NCBI GenBank assembly: GCA_015490175.1
Contig: WFYJ01000133.1
Span: 1-39,347 of the forward strand
Length of the DNA stretch: 39,347 bases
Source: Saprospiraceae bacterium
Lineage (GTDB): Bacteria; Bacteroidota; Bacteroidia; Chitinophagales; Saprospiraceae
Direction: 5' to 3'
The position numbers and the translations under genes are program-made. Under the pieces are notes generated by a model. It was not told the DNA's origin. It searched no databases and was given only the letters and a program-made list of their open reading frames with translations. This document shows positions 32,419 through 35,898 of the stretch, in pieces. The first letter of the stretch is position 1; the number at the start of each line of letters is the position of its first letter.

Positions 32419-33657
32419 TCATTGCCGGACGAAGAACAACCTGCCCGATACCGCCCGGCCTTCCTTGTCGTGGTAGCCGACGTAAAAATAGACGCCCGAA
32501 GGGATATTGTTGGGTTGCCACTGCCGGGTTTCATTTGCCGAAAGGCGGAAAGAAGCAAGGGTGCGTCCCTGGACATCGAACAGGCGCATGTGCAGGGGCC
32601 GGGCGCCATTCCATGTGAATTCCAGGCCGTTGGCGAGGGGGCGGATCTGCAATGGGACTTCCGCAGCGGGTTCCGAAGCCGGGGTGGGCAAGGGCCACCA
32701 CTGCACCGTTGGGAGCCGGAGCAGGCGCGCGGGCAACGGTCCGAACTGCTCCGAACCGATGATGCCGCTGCCTGGCCGGACAAAAGCCAGGGCTTCGGTC
32801 TGGCCGCTCGTCAGCACCGAGCCCAGCTCGATGCGGCGCCTGTTTTTCGAAAACGGATTGCCGGTCGGCGGCAACTGCATGGGGGTGTCGTAGCACAGCC
32901 AGAGAAACGATGTGGCCGTTTGCACATTGTAGCCCAGCAGGACGAGCGCGCCGGCGGGGTCTATGGCGGCATCGGTGATCTGGCCGTCGCAGTCGAACGA
33001 CTGGCGCAGCAGGGCGGTGTGCGTGCCGGGCGTGGCGGGCAGCACGTAGTGTCTGGTCTGGAACGAGTTCCAGCCCTTGGTGAAGAGATGCAGGCTGTCG
33101 CCAAAAAACACCACCGCCTCGCAGTCGAAATCTTCTTTCTCGTCCGGTGGCAGGGATTCGTCCCAGTCTTCATAGCTGAACTGGATGATGTCGGGCGTCA
33201 GTTCGGCGCCGACGGCCAGTTGGTCGAGGTCGATGCGGTAGATGCGCAAGACGCTGCGTTCGCCGTTGTTGTTGCCCACGTCGGCCACGAACAGGTGGGT
33301 GTCGCTGCGCGTCAAGGCTTCCCAGTCTTCGTTCGTCACCGCCGCCACGTCAGCTTGTCCGACGATCGAGCCTGCGAGCGTGTCTATGGCATAGAGCACC
33401 GGCTCGTTGCCGCTGTCGTTGATGCCCCACAGCAGGCCGTCGTGCCAGACCAGACCGGACAATTCCGACACCTGCGGATCGAGTACACTCATCAAGGCGG
33501 GCTGGTAAGAAGTGGGCGGATAGGTGCACGAGCCGTCGTTTTGCTGTGCTTGCGGGTCGAAGTTGGAGGCCATGGGATCGGTACAGCCGGATTGTGCGTG
33601 CGTGCCGGCGAGCGAAATCAGCAGCGTGGTGATCCACGTGAGCAAGATGGGTTTCAT
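32419..33657 (-). CDS. Secreted protein with type IX secretion (Por-type) C-terminal signal
   Basis: This 412-residue protein has a signal peptide (residues 1-21, ending 'AGTHAQ'). Next comes a cysteine-containing calcium-loop-like motif 'GCTDPMASNFDP' with 'NDGSCTY', common at the N-terminus of T9SS cargo. A beta-propeller-like central region (about 50-320) has strands such as 'LVWHDGLLWGINDSG' and 'DWEALTRSDTHLFVADVGNN'. The last 80 residues form a type A sorting domain ('MRLFDVQGRTLASF' to 'GVYFYVGY' and terminal 'RLFFVRQ'). It should be exported to the cell surface or medium. No catalytic motif was recognised. CACATTTG at 33674-33681 (minus strand) is a one-mismatch -7 box. The start is set at the signal peptide. 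Confidence 0.82.
   Translation of the reverse strand: MKPILLTWITTLLISLAGTHAQSGCTDPMASNFDPQAQQNDGSCTYPPTSYQPALMSVLDPQVSELSGLVWHDGLLWGINDSGNEPVLYAIDTLAGSIVGQADVAAVTNEDWEALTRSDTHLFVADVGNNNGERSVLRIYRIDLDQLAVGAELTPDIIQFSYEDWDESLPPDEKEDFDCEAVVFFGDSLHLFTKGWNSFQTRHYVLPATPGTHTALLRQSFDCDGQITDAAIDPAGALVLLGYNVQTATSFLWLCYDTPMQLPPTGNPFSKNRRRIELGSVLTSGQTEALAFVRPGSGIIGSEQFGPLPARLLRLPTVQWWPLPTPASEPAAEVPLQIRPLANGLEFTWNGARPLHMRLFDVQGRTLASFRLSANETRQWQPNNIPSGVYFYVGYHDKEGRAVSGRLFFVRQ
32534..32546 (-). repeat. Dispersed 13-mer TTTGCCGAAAGGC, copy 7
   Basis: Exact copy inside the T9SS sorting domain coding region, read there as Arg-Leu-Ser-Ala-Asn. The strand is that of the GCCTTTCGGCAAA form. Confidence 0.75.
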
Positions 33658-33818
33658 GAGGGCCTGTTTTCTGCAAATGTGCGACCTGCAGCGGAAAAGG
33701 CGCCATTGGCCAGTGCTTTTCCGGAGCGATAAGGTGTATTTTCCGCTCCGAATCTGCATCCACTGCAACGGCATGGGGTATGAGGGTTGCGTTTTTTCTC
33801 TGGCTGTCAGGCGTTTGG

Positions 33819-33856
33819 TCAAATCCTCGATTACCTCGGGAAAAACTGTTCCTCGT
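33819..33856. repeat. Diverged copy of the TCAAATCCTCG box
   Basis: TCAAATCCTCGATT at 33819-33832 is followed after a short insertion by TGTTCCTCG. It lies in the divergent spacer between the secreted protein gene and the nicotinamidase-like gene. Confidence 0.6.
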
Positions 33857-33907
33857 CCCTTGCCATCGTTTGAACAATCTTGCGATTTTTTGCACCGAGC
33901 ATCGAGA

Positions 33908-34516
33908 ATGAAAAATGACGACGACATGAGCGGCTTTACCTTGCTCGTATGCGGCATGCAGATTGATCACAGCCAACCGGGCAGCCTGGGCGGCGTGGCC
34001 GATCGCCTGGTGGCACCCATCGTGCAGGCGGCGCGGCAGGCTGCTTACGTCGTCGGCCTGCGTGAGTGGCACCCTGCCGACCACGTCAGCTTCGCGGCGC
34101 GCCATCTGTGGCGCAAGCCCGGCCAGCAAGTCGTTTTCGGGGAGCGCGCCCTCGAGCTGCAGCCCATCCATTGCGTGCAGGGCACCTTTGGCGCGCGCTG
34201 GCTGCCCGGCATTGCGGGGCTGCCCTGGTCGCTGGTCGTCGATACGGGTGCCCGCCGCGATGTGGACCATTATTCGGCTTTCGAAGAGGCCGACGGTGCC
34301 GATACGGGCCTGTTGCCTTGGCTGAAGGCGCGCGATCCCGGGATGCTCGTGCTGGCCGGGCTGCCGCTCGATGGTCTGCTGGGAGCCACATTCGAACAGG
34401 CGCGCGCCCTGGGCTTTGAGGTGCGCTTGTTGGAGGGGGGATGCAGCCTGCTGCACCAGCTCGAGGTGTCGCCTGCGTGGAGGGAGCCACACGCAATGTG
34501 GTGGTCGCCCGGGTGA
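33908..34516 (+). CDS. Nicotinamidase-fold protein lacking the catalytic triad (probable pseudoenzyme)
   Basis: This 202-residue protein aligns along its length with PncA-type nicotinamidases of the isochorismatase-like superfamily. Shared blocks are 'MQIDHSQPGSL', 'EWHPADHVSF' (residues 53-62), 'HCVQGT' (88-93) and 'VDHYSAF' (119-125). All three catalytic residues are changed: the aspartate of 'DMQ' is Gly16, the lysine before the 'VDxYSAF' block is Thr113, and the nucleophilic cysteine of 'DYC' is Leu157. Of the metal ligands, His55 and His88 remain and the aspartate is Glu53. The frame is intact and the fold residues are conserved, so I infer a non-hydrolytic binding or regulatory protein rather than decay. 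The start is ATG 33908 or 33926. It converges on the ybbR-like gene with a 9-base gap. Confidence 0.75.
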   Translation: MKNDDDMSGFTLLVCGMQIDHSQPGSLGGVADRLVAPIVQAARQAAYVVGLREWHPADHVSFAARHLWRKPGQQVVFGERALELQPIHCVQGTFGARWLPGIAGLPWSLVVDTGARRDVDHYSAFEEADGADTGLLPWLKARDPGMLVLAGLPLDGLLGATFEQARALGFEVRLLEGGCSLLHQLEVSPAWREPHAMWWSPG

Positions 34517-34525
34517 AAAGAACAG

Positions 34526-35509
34526 TCAGCGCGATGAGGTGTCCACGAAGTAAAACGACACGGCCTGGGGGGTAAACCGAACGTTGCGCACGAAAGGTGG
34601 GCTCTGCATCAGGTGCAGGGGCACAGTGGTCTGATTACTGCCCGGCTCCAGCCCTCTCAGGTCGGCCACCACGCGGAAGTCCGAGGTGTCCACGGTTTCG
34701 TATTTGCCGACAGGCAATTCGACCAGTAATTGCACATGGGTGGGCTGGATGCGGACATGGGCCGTGTCGCCCAGAATCGTGACGGGTTGGATGAGCGCCT
34801 TTTCCGTCAGCCTTTCTACCTGTACGCGTACTTTTACTTTGTCGGGTCGGGCGCGCAACAGGTCGGCGTGGGGCAACTGGATGGGCACGGTGTGCTCGAG
34901 CGGTGCCGATACTTCCGATGCTTCCAGAGGCTGCGTCTGTACGTGGTCAATGGTCTGTACCAGCGATGCGGGGCCGCTGATTTCCACGGTATCGGGCACG
35001 GCCCGGATGGAATCTGTCAGTACGTATCCCGAAGCGATGGATACCTTTTGTGTGGGCACGCGCACGGGCACGCGCCGCACCAGCCGTCGCTCCACGCGAA
35101 TGGGCAGGAAGTCATATTCGAGCCGCACCACTTCGATGTCTGGATGCAACTGCGACTCGAGCTGTGAGATGATTTCGTCGCGGCTGACCATCGCGTTACT
35201 GCGCTGCCCTACGGGGAAATAGAGCACCGGATCGGAGCGCCACAGGCTCTGTGCCAGCAAATCCCAACCCTCACCGCTCACTTCTACCTGCATGGTCTCG
35301 GGCGGGAGCTCGTGCCAGGCCAGCGTATCGGGCAACTGCCAGGTGATGTGGACCGCGATGGTGGTCGTGTAGCTGTTGTCGAGCTTGACGAAAAGCCAGA
35401 AAACCAGCGAGATGCAAAAGCATACCAGCCAGACCCTGCGGTCTTCAGCCTCAGGCAACACGCTGCCCAACATGGACAAGCGTTTCGATATCCAGGAACC
35501 CGGGTTCAT
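34526..35509 (-). CDS. YbbR-like (CdaR-type) domain protein
   Basis: This 327-residue protein has one membrane helix near the N-terminus (about residues 26-42, 'VWLVCFCISLVFWLFVKL'), then an extracytoplasmic region of YbbR-like beta domains: 'VEISGPASLVQTIDHVQT' (about 175-192) and 'PIQLPHADLLRARPDKVKVRVQV' (abbreviated, about 210-232). In Firmicutes, YbbR/CdaR proteins regulate the di-adenylate cyclase CdaA. In Bacteroidota a related gene typically sits directly after yajC, as here; its function there is not established. It follows yajC by 56 bases on the same strand and is probably co-transcribed. The coaE gene that often follows in this phylum is absent. Confidence 0.78.
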   Translation of the reverse strand: MNPGSWISKRLSMLGSVLPEAEDRRVWLVCFCISLVFWLFVKLDNSYTTTIAVHITWQLPDTLAWHELPPETMQVEVSGEGWDLLAQSLWRSDPVLYFPVGQRSNAMVSRDEIISQLESQLHPDIEVVRLEYDFLPIRVERRLVRRVPVRVPTQKVSIASGYVLTDSIRAVPDTVEISGPASLVQTIDHVQTQPLEASEVSAPLEHTVPIQLPHADLLRARPDKVKVRVQVERLTEKALIQPVTILGDTAHVRIQPTHVQLLVELPVGKYETVDTSDFRVVADLRGLEPGSNQTTVPLHLMQSPPFVRNVRFTPQAVSFYFVDTSSR

Positions 35510-35565: not shown

Positions 35566-35898
35566 TCAGTCTTTCTTCTCTTCTTCGCCGGCGTGCAGGG
35601 CATCGGTCATTTCCTTGGAAATGGCACTGCGCAAGACGCGCACGAAGTGCTTGTTGCCCAGGTCGAGCGTGACGATGTCGCCTTCGATCTTGTTGATGCG
35701 TCCGATGAGGCCACTCCCCGTGACGACCTCCTGTCCTTTCTGGAGGCTGTCGATGAACTGGCGCTGCTCGCGCTGGCGCTTGGCCTGAGGACGGATCATG
35801 AACAGCCAGAAAACCAGGATGATCAATCCCCAGAATACCAGCGTCATAATCCCCTGGTTGCCTCCTGCTTGCAGTAAAATGAGTGCCATGAGTTGCAT
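35566..35898 (-). CDS. yajC: Preprotein translocase subunit YajC
   Basis: YajC is a small accessory subunit of the SecDF-YajC complex, which assists Sec-dependent export. The 110-residue protein has one N-terminal membrane helix (about residues 17-35) ending in the family motif 'FMIRPQAKRQREQ'. A cytoplasmic beta domain follows with 'GQEVVTGSGLIGRINKIEGD' (about 54-73) and a charged tail. Length and motifs are typical. It precedes the ybbR-like gene, and its promoter box is at 35933-35940. Confidence 0.95.
   Translation of the reverse strand: MQLMALILLQAGGNQGIMTLVFWGLIILVFWLFMIRPQAKRQREQRQFIDSLQKGQEVVTGSGLIGRINKIEGDIVTLDLGNKHFVRVLRSAISKEMTDALHAGEEEKKD

Follow-up and report, generated by a model that had tools for sequence, protein, structure and literature searches.

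What does a nicotinamidase homologue do in the cell when none of the three catalytic residues of its family is left? The question is raised by a Saprospiraceae gene of 202 codons in the window, by which we mean the whole stretch of 39,347 nucleotides analysed here. We used profile and structure-database matches, comparison with related genomes, measures of selection, and species and gene trees to infer what became of this gene and why it may have been kept.

Identity and active site of the window gene

Asp-Lys-Cys is given as the catalytic triad of the superfamily in PMC8849098, which describes EntB and YecD as having Asp-Lys-Gly. For the metal site of a nicotinamidase, PMC13398362 gives the ligands Asp-His-His. 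The window protein matches the isochorismatase-fold domain (PF00857; E 4.5e-8, 33.8 bits, above the cut-off of 27) and the PRK11609 nicotinamidase model (E 4.6e-19), the latter at 69.1 bits and thus below the equivalog cut-off of 174; the canonical copy of the same genome (L001), as trimmed, scores 173 bits with this model and is likewise just under the cut-off. Its closest solved relative is the Acinetobacter nicotinamidase 2wt9 (E 2e-20). Counted along that alignment, Gly16, Thr113 and Leu157 stand opposite D37, K135 and C180 of the 2wt9 chain, and Glu53, His55 and His88 stand opposite D75, H77 and H110. We take the first three residues of the chain to be D16, K114 and C159, and the other three to be D54, H56 and H89, in the numbering of the structure paper. 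These assumed identities fit the triad and metal motifs given in PMC8849098 and PMC13398362.

The first-pass annotation had described an open frame with all three catalytic residues replaced, and this holds: the Asp-Lys-Cys triad of PncA is missing as a whole. It had also foreseen that a better alignment might place other Asp, Lys and Cys residues in the active site. This is ruled out, as the ten residues to either side of each triad position align to 2wt9 without a gap. A feature that the annotation had not recorded is the replacement of the first metal ligand by Glu53, and compared with the Asp-His-His site of PncA the site of the window protein would differ by one conservative change. The coordinates of these features are listed in Table 1.

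Table 1. Features of the triad-less gene and its conserved downstream neighbours (positions within the window)
Feature	Coordinates	Strand	Basis
Triad-less long-form PncA homologue, 202 aa	33908..34516	+	ORF and profile/structure-database matches; start 33908 or internal ATG 33926
Gly16 codon, replaces catalytic Asp	33953..33955	+	Alignment to 2wt9
Glu53 codon, replaces first metal-ligand Asp	34064..34066	+	Alignment to 2wt9
His55 codon, metal-ligand position kept	34070..34072	+	Alignment to 2wt9
Kept loop FAARHLWRKPGQ, residues 62-73; F62, A63, H66, R69 invariant in 27/27 altered rows	34091..34126	+	Conservation counts
His88 codon, metal-ligand position kept	34169..34171	+	Alignment to 2wt9
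Second kept block HCVQGTFGARWLPGI, residues 88-102; G95 invariant in 27/27 altered rows	34169..34213	+	Conservation counts
Thr113 codon, replaces catalytic Lys	34244..34246	+	Alignment to 2wt9
Leu157 codon, replaces catalytic Cys	34376..34378	+	Alignment to 2wt9
ybbR-like gene, convergent neighbour of the triad-less gene	34526..35509	-	ORF and profile match
yajC, next gene of the conserved block after ybbR	35566..35898	-	ORF and profile match

An AlphaFold model of the protein, built from two sequences (mean pLDDT 52, pTM 0.59), is too weak for residue-level use and for placing the kept loop; in a fold search with this low-confidence model the nicotinamidases 2wta and 2wt9 rank first. A protein search of viral contigs found no viral relatives. 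Two other long open frames, one antisense to the gene (33350-34492, minus strand) and one upstream of it (33524-33907, plus strand), look like side effects of the 59% GC content and do not appear to be evidence of genes.

A constrained orthologue and an intact pncA in the same genomes

A contig search returned one relative, the Saprospiraceae MAG contig JALSGS010000021.1, which is the match in a second genome of the window's genus (G028; locus L033, the window locus being L004). The two proteins are 56% identical, with Gly, Val and Leu at the triad places and Glu at the first metal place of the orthologue, and they share the blocks GGVADRL, REWHPxDHVSFAARHxWRKPGQ, VDHYSAFEEADG and VLAGLPLDGLLG. 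An assembly or sequencing error in the window, one contig among the 291 of its assembly, has a vanishingly small probability and is ruled out by this separate MAG contig, whose corresponding blocks have the Gly and Leu of the window and a Val where the window has Thr. Synteny between the two genomes is kept over sbcD, a secreted-type ORF, the triad-less gene, the convergent ybbR, yajC and htrA. The orthologue is preceded by a VTC-domain gene and a DUF4956 gene, its start overlapping the DUF4956 stop (L033:3448-5992); no such genes lie directly upstream of the triad-less gene in the window.

The pN/pS of the triad-less gene between the two genomes is 0.39 (95% 0.32-0.48), and that of other genes of the same pair is 0.42 for sbcD, 0.51 for ybbR, 0.41 for the GSG-rich secreted-type ORF, 0.15 for htrA and 0.11 for the canonical pncA; synonymous sites are saturated at this distance, so that these values are comparisons between genes and not dN/dS. 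Between these two genomes, dN is 0.45 for the triad-less gene and 0.09 for canonical PncA.

PF00857 finds two genes in the window genome, namely the triad-less one and a short-form PncA on another contig (C99, L001), in which DVQNDF, DWHP, KGT and EYCVKS are all intact. The genome also codes for a NAPRT (C23) that scores above the cut-offs of TIGR01513 and PRK09243.1-2. G028 has the same two PncA types, together with NAPRT. The first-pass annotation had pointed to purifying selection and to a separate intact pncA as checks on its reading of a pseudoenzyme kept for another role; the continued action of selection, and an intact pncA and NAPRT elsewhere in the genome, support that reading.

Triad-altered long forms across Saprospiraceae

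Protein searches gave matches in 86 of 199 genomes of the family and in 88 of 396 genomes of the order, together 128 genomes, and triads were read in 114 of these, with G045 and 13 genomes from the order search left out. Among the 119 distinct rows aligned, 84 carry the DKC triad and 35 do not. Taking out two other hydrolases (L034 and L036) and one row at a contig edge (L127) leaves 32 altered rows, one per genome, from 17 genera, all in the family Saprospiraceae (f1). Altered long-form PncA is thus present in 28 of the 199 sampled Saprospiraceae genomes and in 4 further genomes. The 199 comprise 26 genomes with altered copies only, 2 with altered and canonical copies, 57 with canonical copies, 1 with a truncated copy and 113 with no PncA-like gene retrieved (G045 and G141 are counted among the 113, yet have short forms by profile search). 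A profile of 27 altered rows run against the 199 genomes gave no further long match among the candidates scored, at most 15 per genome. Outside Saprospiraceae, the seven class-level matches that were read (L284-L290) are all canonical in their motifs.

The substitutions vary widely. Besides GTL in the window and GVL in its orthologue, the triad types include GKE and NKD (4 rows each), DKS (3), and DTS, DRA and GME (2 each), with GMV, DKG, NKS, NKN, DKN, DRT, NLI, CQC, CQF and DRK among those seen once; in three altered rows one of the triad places is lost to a gap or a truncation. The CQC row (L007) retains Cys, and the DKS, DKG and DKN rows are altered at Cys only. Several altered lineages have lost the metal residues too (FLF, FLY, AYY and LFY). 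The binding of metal proposed in the first-pass annotation thus may hold for the window protein, with Glu53, His55 and His88, and would not be a general role of its relatives. Two altered ORFs, L124 (G016) and L129 (G196), stop before the old Cys loop yet retain the WRKPGQ loop. In ten of the 119 rows (NKD 4, GKE 4, GME 2), Asp is replaced by Asn or Gly and Cys by Asp or Glu, as though the acidic residue had shifted to the other side of the former active site; new chemistry is possible in these subgroups.

Additional PF00857 proteins in altered genomes (L036 in G182, L163 in G031, L164 in G095 and L172 in G493) were considered as PncA and taken for other isochorismatase-like hydrolases, as was L034 in the canonical genome G175. 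All five match the family profile far more weakly than the PncA rows do, and by eye their HPxxH and HCV blocks are missing.

Two segments retained without the triad

Close pairs of proteins that already had an altered triad in common were examined for selection. The dN/dS values are 0.18 for L006/L009 and 0.16 for L085/L101 (Fisher 8e-11 and 2e-8), and a third altered pair, L131/L157, has just four differences and is uninformative. Six canonical pairs have dN/dS of 0.04-0.10, below those of the altered pairs.

Conservation was counted over 27 altered rows, with L007, L128 and the near-copies L009, L101 and L157 left out. Nine columns (window numbering) are invariant in all 27 rows: Q18, D20, P56, F62, A63, H66, R69, G95 and G151. 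L12, G25, W68, P71, Q73, L84 and A96 are nearly invariant. The mean pairwise column identity of the altered rows is 0.74 in the loop (12 columns) and 0.29 elsewhere, versus 0.71 and 0.61 for 36 canonical rows, one per genus, and the conservation of the block around FGA behaves like that of the loop. The FAxxHxWRxPGQ and HCVxxxFGA segments are therefore as conserved in triad-less as in working proteins, while the rest of the protein drifts. The strict loop pattern is found in 54 of the 77 canonical rows from the family and in 18 of the 35 non-DKC rows; its tail PGQ varies, and only the core (FAxxHxWR) is general. None of seven rows from other families of the order has the strict pattern, and PGKKPF or other sequences are found there. 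Neither the fold nor a canonical triad as such thus depends on this form of the loop.

Number and origin of the triad losses

An rpoB tree was built for 60 genomes, of which 30 are altered and 30 canonical, leaving out G095, G164, G049 (no rpoB match) and G074 (split). On this tree the triad state needs 12 changes, of which at least 11 are forced by supported branches. Altered and canonical copies both occur within the genera g17 and g72. The PncA gene tree, from which the active-site columns were dropped and L034, L036, L127 and L128 (contig edge) left out, needs only 3 changes, and most altered rows branch off outside the canonical ones, with long branches. When the gene tree was constrained to five in-place groupings that synteny or species suggest, none was rejected (AU p 0.32-0.83), and three of the five reached a higher likelihood. 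In a free tree of 42 rows, 18 altered rows form one side of a branch with support 37. Overall, the gene tree does not decide for or against repeated loss, and we read the discrepancy with the rpoB tree as repeated triad loss combined with long-branch attraction.

Canonical long-form PncA genes occur in three settings: NAPRT-NrtR-WG repeat-PNC; PNC-OAT, often after an ABC ATPase; and NrtR-WG-PNC-YbbR-YajC (G015 and G122), the identities of NAPRT, NrtR, WG-repeat and OAT having been checked on one member each. In G015 and G122 the canonical PncA adjoins YbbR and YajC in the same order as at the window gene. The neighbours of altered rows are OAT in 7, WG-repeat in 6 and YbbR in 2 of 32 rows (the window's own included), and those of canonical rows are OAT in 13, WG-repeat in 9 and YbbR in 2 of 81. 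Roughly one altered row in two is thus found in a slot that can be recognised as canonical, and the others are not. In several canonical operons of the NAPRT-NrtR-WG-pncA type, pncA is immediately preceded by a WG-repeat gene, which still adjoins the altered pncA at L119, L123, L097, L132, L126 and L128, in genomes where no NAPRT was found. The WG-repeat protein is a possible partner of altered PncA.

The 3 changes of the gene tree, its placement of most altered rows outside the canonical ones and the 18 rows on one side of a branch would also follow from one ancient triad-less paralogue, present in early Saprospiraceae and then differentially lost. We regard this origin as unlikely, given the 12 changes on the rpoB tree, the two genera that hold both kinds of copy and the three kinds of canonical neighbour found beside altered copies; moreover, no genome among the retrieved rows combines a canonical long form with an altered copy, the only two genomes with both having the short form. 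It competes with repeated loss on origin and is compatible with our preferred explanation of function.

Triad alteration and the loss of NAPRT

PF04095 was searched in 65 genomes, namely the 32 altered ones, the truncated G008 and 32 canonical ones that were hand-picked among those with the canonical long form and are not a random sample. Matches are of a weak and a strong type, which were checked on a few members and assigned by score in the other genomes. The weak type is NAPRT (checked for G000, G028, G127 and one operon copy). For the strong type, the search of solved structures with the G155 protein returned nicotinamide phosphoribosyltransferases, from E 4e-184, which identifies it as NAMPT, although the NCBIfam model that matches it is labelled nicotinate phosphoribosyltransferase. 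The weak type is present in all 32 canonical genomes. Among the altered genomes, 23 have no match, so that neither NAPRT nor NAMPT was found by PF04095, 4 have the strong type only (G091, G095, G133 and G155), 3 have both (G127, G482 and G493) and 2 have the weak type only (G000 and G028). NAPRT is absent in 27 and present in 5 of the 32, and these five have either a second PncA (G000 and G028) or also NAMPT. G127, G482 and G493, with NAPRT-type and NAMPT-type matches next to an altered PncA, are possibly a snapshot of the bypass of PncA by NAMPT.

Across the 199 genomes, several of which are draft MAGs, so that some absences may be gaps, the weak type was found in 53 of 57 genomes with canonical copies only, in 1 of 26 with altered copies only, in both genomes with altered and canonical copies, in 5 of 113 with no PncA-like gene retrieved and in the truncated G008 (1/1). 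Of the four canonical-only genomes without it, G126, G170 and G183 have a completeness of 64-82%, and G175 codes for a TIGR01514-type NAPRT. Among 11 independent pairs on the rpoB tree, whose genomes were chosen among those with a PncA-like gene and not at random, NAPRT loss tracks triad loss in 10, goes in the opposite direction in none and shows no difference in 1 (p 0.002). Triad alteration thus goes with NAPRT loss in the sampled Saprospiraceae. The suggestion of the first-pass annotation that such a protein regulates a true PncA is disfavoured as a general role: 23 of the 32 altered genomes are without any PF04095 match, and a canonical PncA alongside an altered copy was seen only in the two genomes of the window's genus. 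Its interpretation as a whole is partly supported.

A probable pseudoenzyme with a binding role

The window gene probably codes for a pseudoenzyme that derives from the Saprospiraceae long-form PncA, still folds and is retained for binding instead of catalysis. As is expected of pseudoenzymes, it is homologous to a working enzyme and has its catalytic residues missing, and it is maintained by selection (for the window pair by pN/pS only). Upon loss of the triad, a long-form PncA ancestor would no longer hydrolyse nicotinamide by Asp-Lys-Cys chemistry, and the two retained segments may form one surface that binds a putative partner or ligand. From its conservation, we infer that the loop would carry this binding role, which may already have been present in the working enzyme. 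Catalysis would have been given up at one of three events: the loss of the nicotinate route, with NAPRT gone; its bypass, with NAMPT present; or, as in the window's genus, its takeover by another PncA. A wider reading, which we find plausible and put forward tentatively from these comparisons, is that long-form PncA has two jobs in Saprospiraceae, that of an amidase and that of a protein which binds via FAxxHxWRxPGQ/HCVxxxFGA; its catalysis would have been lost some ten or more separate times when nicotinate salvage was lost, bypassed or duplicated, and the pseudo-nicotinamidases would still do the second job. Outright loss of PncA is commoner than retention of an altered copy, so that the second role cannot be indispensable throughout the family. 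Against the binding explanation, altered proteins evolve faster than canonical ones, the strict loop pattern is general in its core only, two altered ORFs stop before the old Cys loop, and a gene tree with 3 changes could mean fewer and older losses.

The retained metal His pair of the window protein and the rows in which Asp to Asn or Gly often goes with Cys to Asp or Glu could instead indicate a neofunctionalised enzyme, a new hydrolase or lyase that carries out another reaction with other residues, such as the Glu53-His55-His88 metal site or His66 and Arg69 of the loop. But the substitutions differ widely by lineage, the metal residues are also lost in several, and the segments kept in the 27 rows exclude the triad; this is difficult to reconcile with a single new reaction common to all, though single subgroups could have one, and we judge the explanation rather improbable. 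Still less credible is slow decay, in which the gene, left without function by the loss or replacement of the nicotinate route, drifts away. The faster evolution of altered copies, the 113 of 199 family genomes without a retrieved PncA-like gene and the early stops of L124 and L129 would fit such a decay, but the measures of selection already oppose it, with low dN/dS and strong Fisher values between relatives that were already altered, nine invariant columns in all 27 rows, and a window orthologue pair about as constrained as sbcD and ybbR. The retained binding function remains our preferred explanation.

Relation to known systems and implications

With the long-form PncA of Acinetobacter baumannii (2wt9; PRK11609), the window protein has in common the fold family, the His pair of the metal site, the HPADHVSFA and HCVQGT blocks and a similar length, but in it all three triad residues (Asp, Lys and Cys) are replaced, as is the first metal Asp, and its loop reads WRKPGQ where 2wt9 has GKQPFE. 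EntB and YecD, the Asp-Lys-Gly proteins of PMC8849098, belong to the same superfamily and likewise have Cys replaced; as that source presents them they retain Asp and Lys, whereas the window protein retains neither and would fall outside the Asp-Lys-Gly class. The CspC pseudoprotease of spore germination, in the account of PMC6636752, is likewise an enzyme fold with its catalytic residues gone and another role kept. In the open-licence PMC literature, we found no description of a pseudo-nicotinamidase, an isochorismatase-like pseudoenzyme or a Saprospiraceae nicotinamidase, and one may exist in print.

If our explanation is true, Saprospiraceae would offer a natural replicate experiment in the passage from enzyme to non-enzyme, with apparently many losses of one active site. 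The loss of NAPRT would then be the metabolic change that accompanies the triad losses, and the one retained surface would point to a hidden second function of nicotinamidase. Annotating the altered genes as nicotinamidase would lead to NAD salvage being inferred for genomes from which it has gone.
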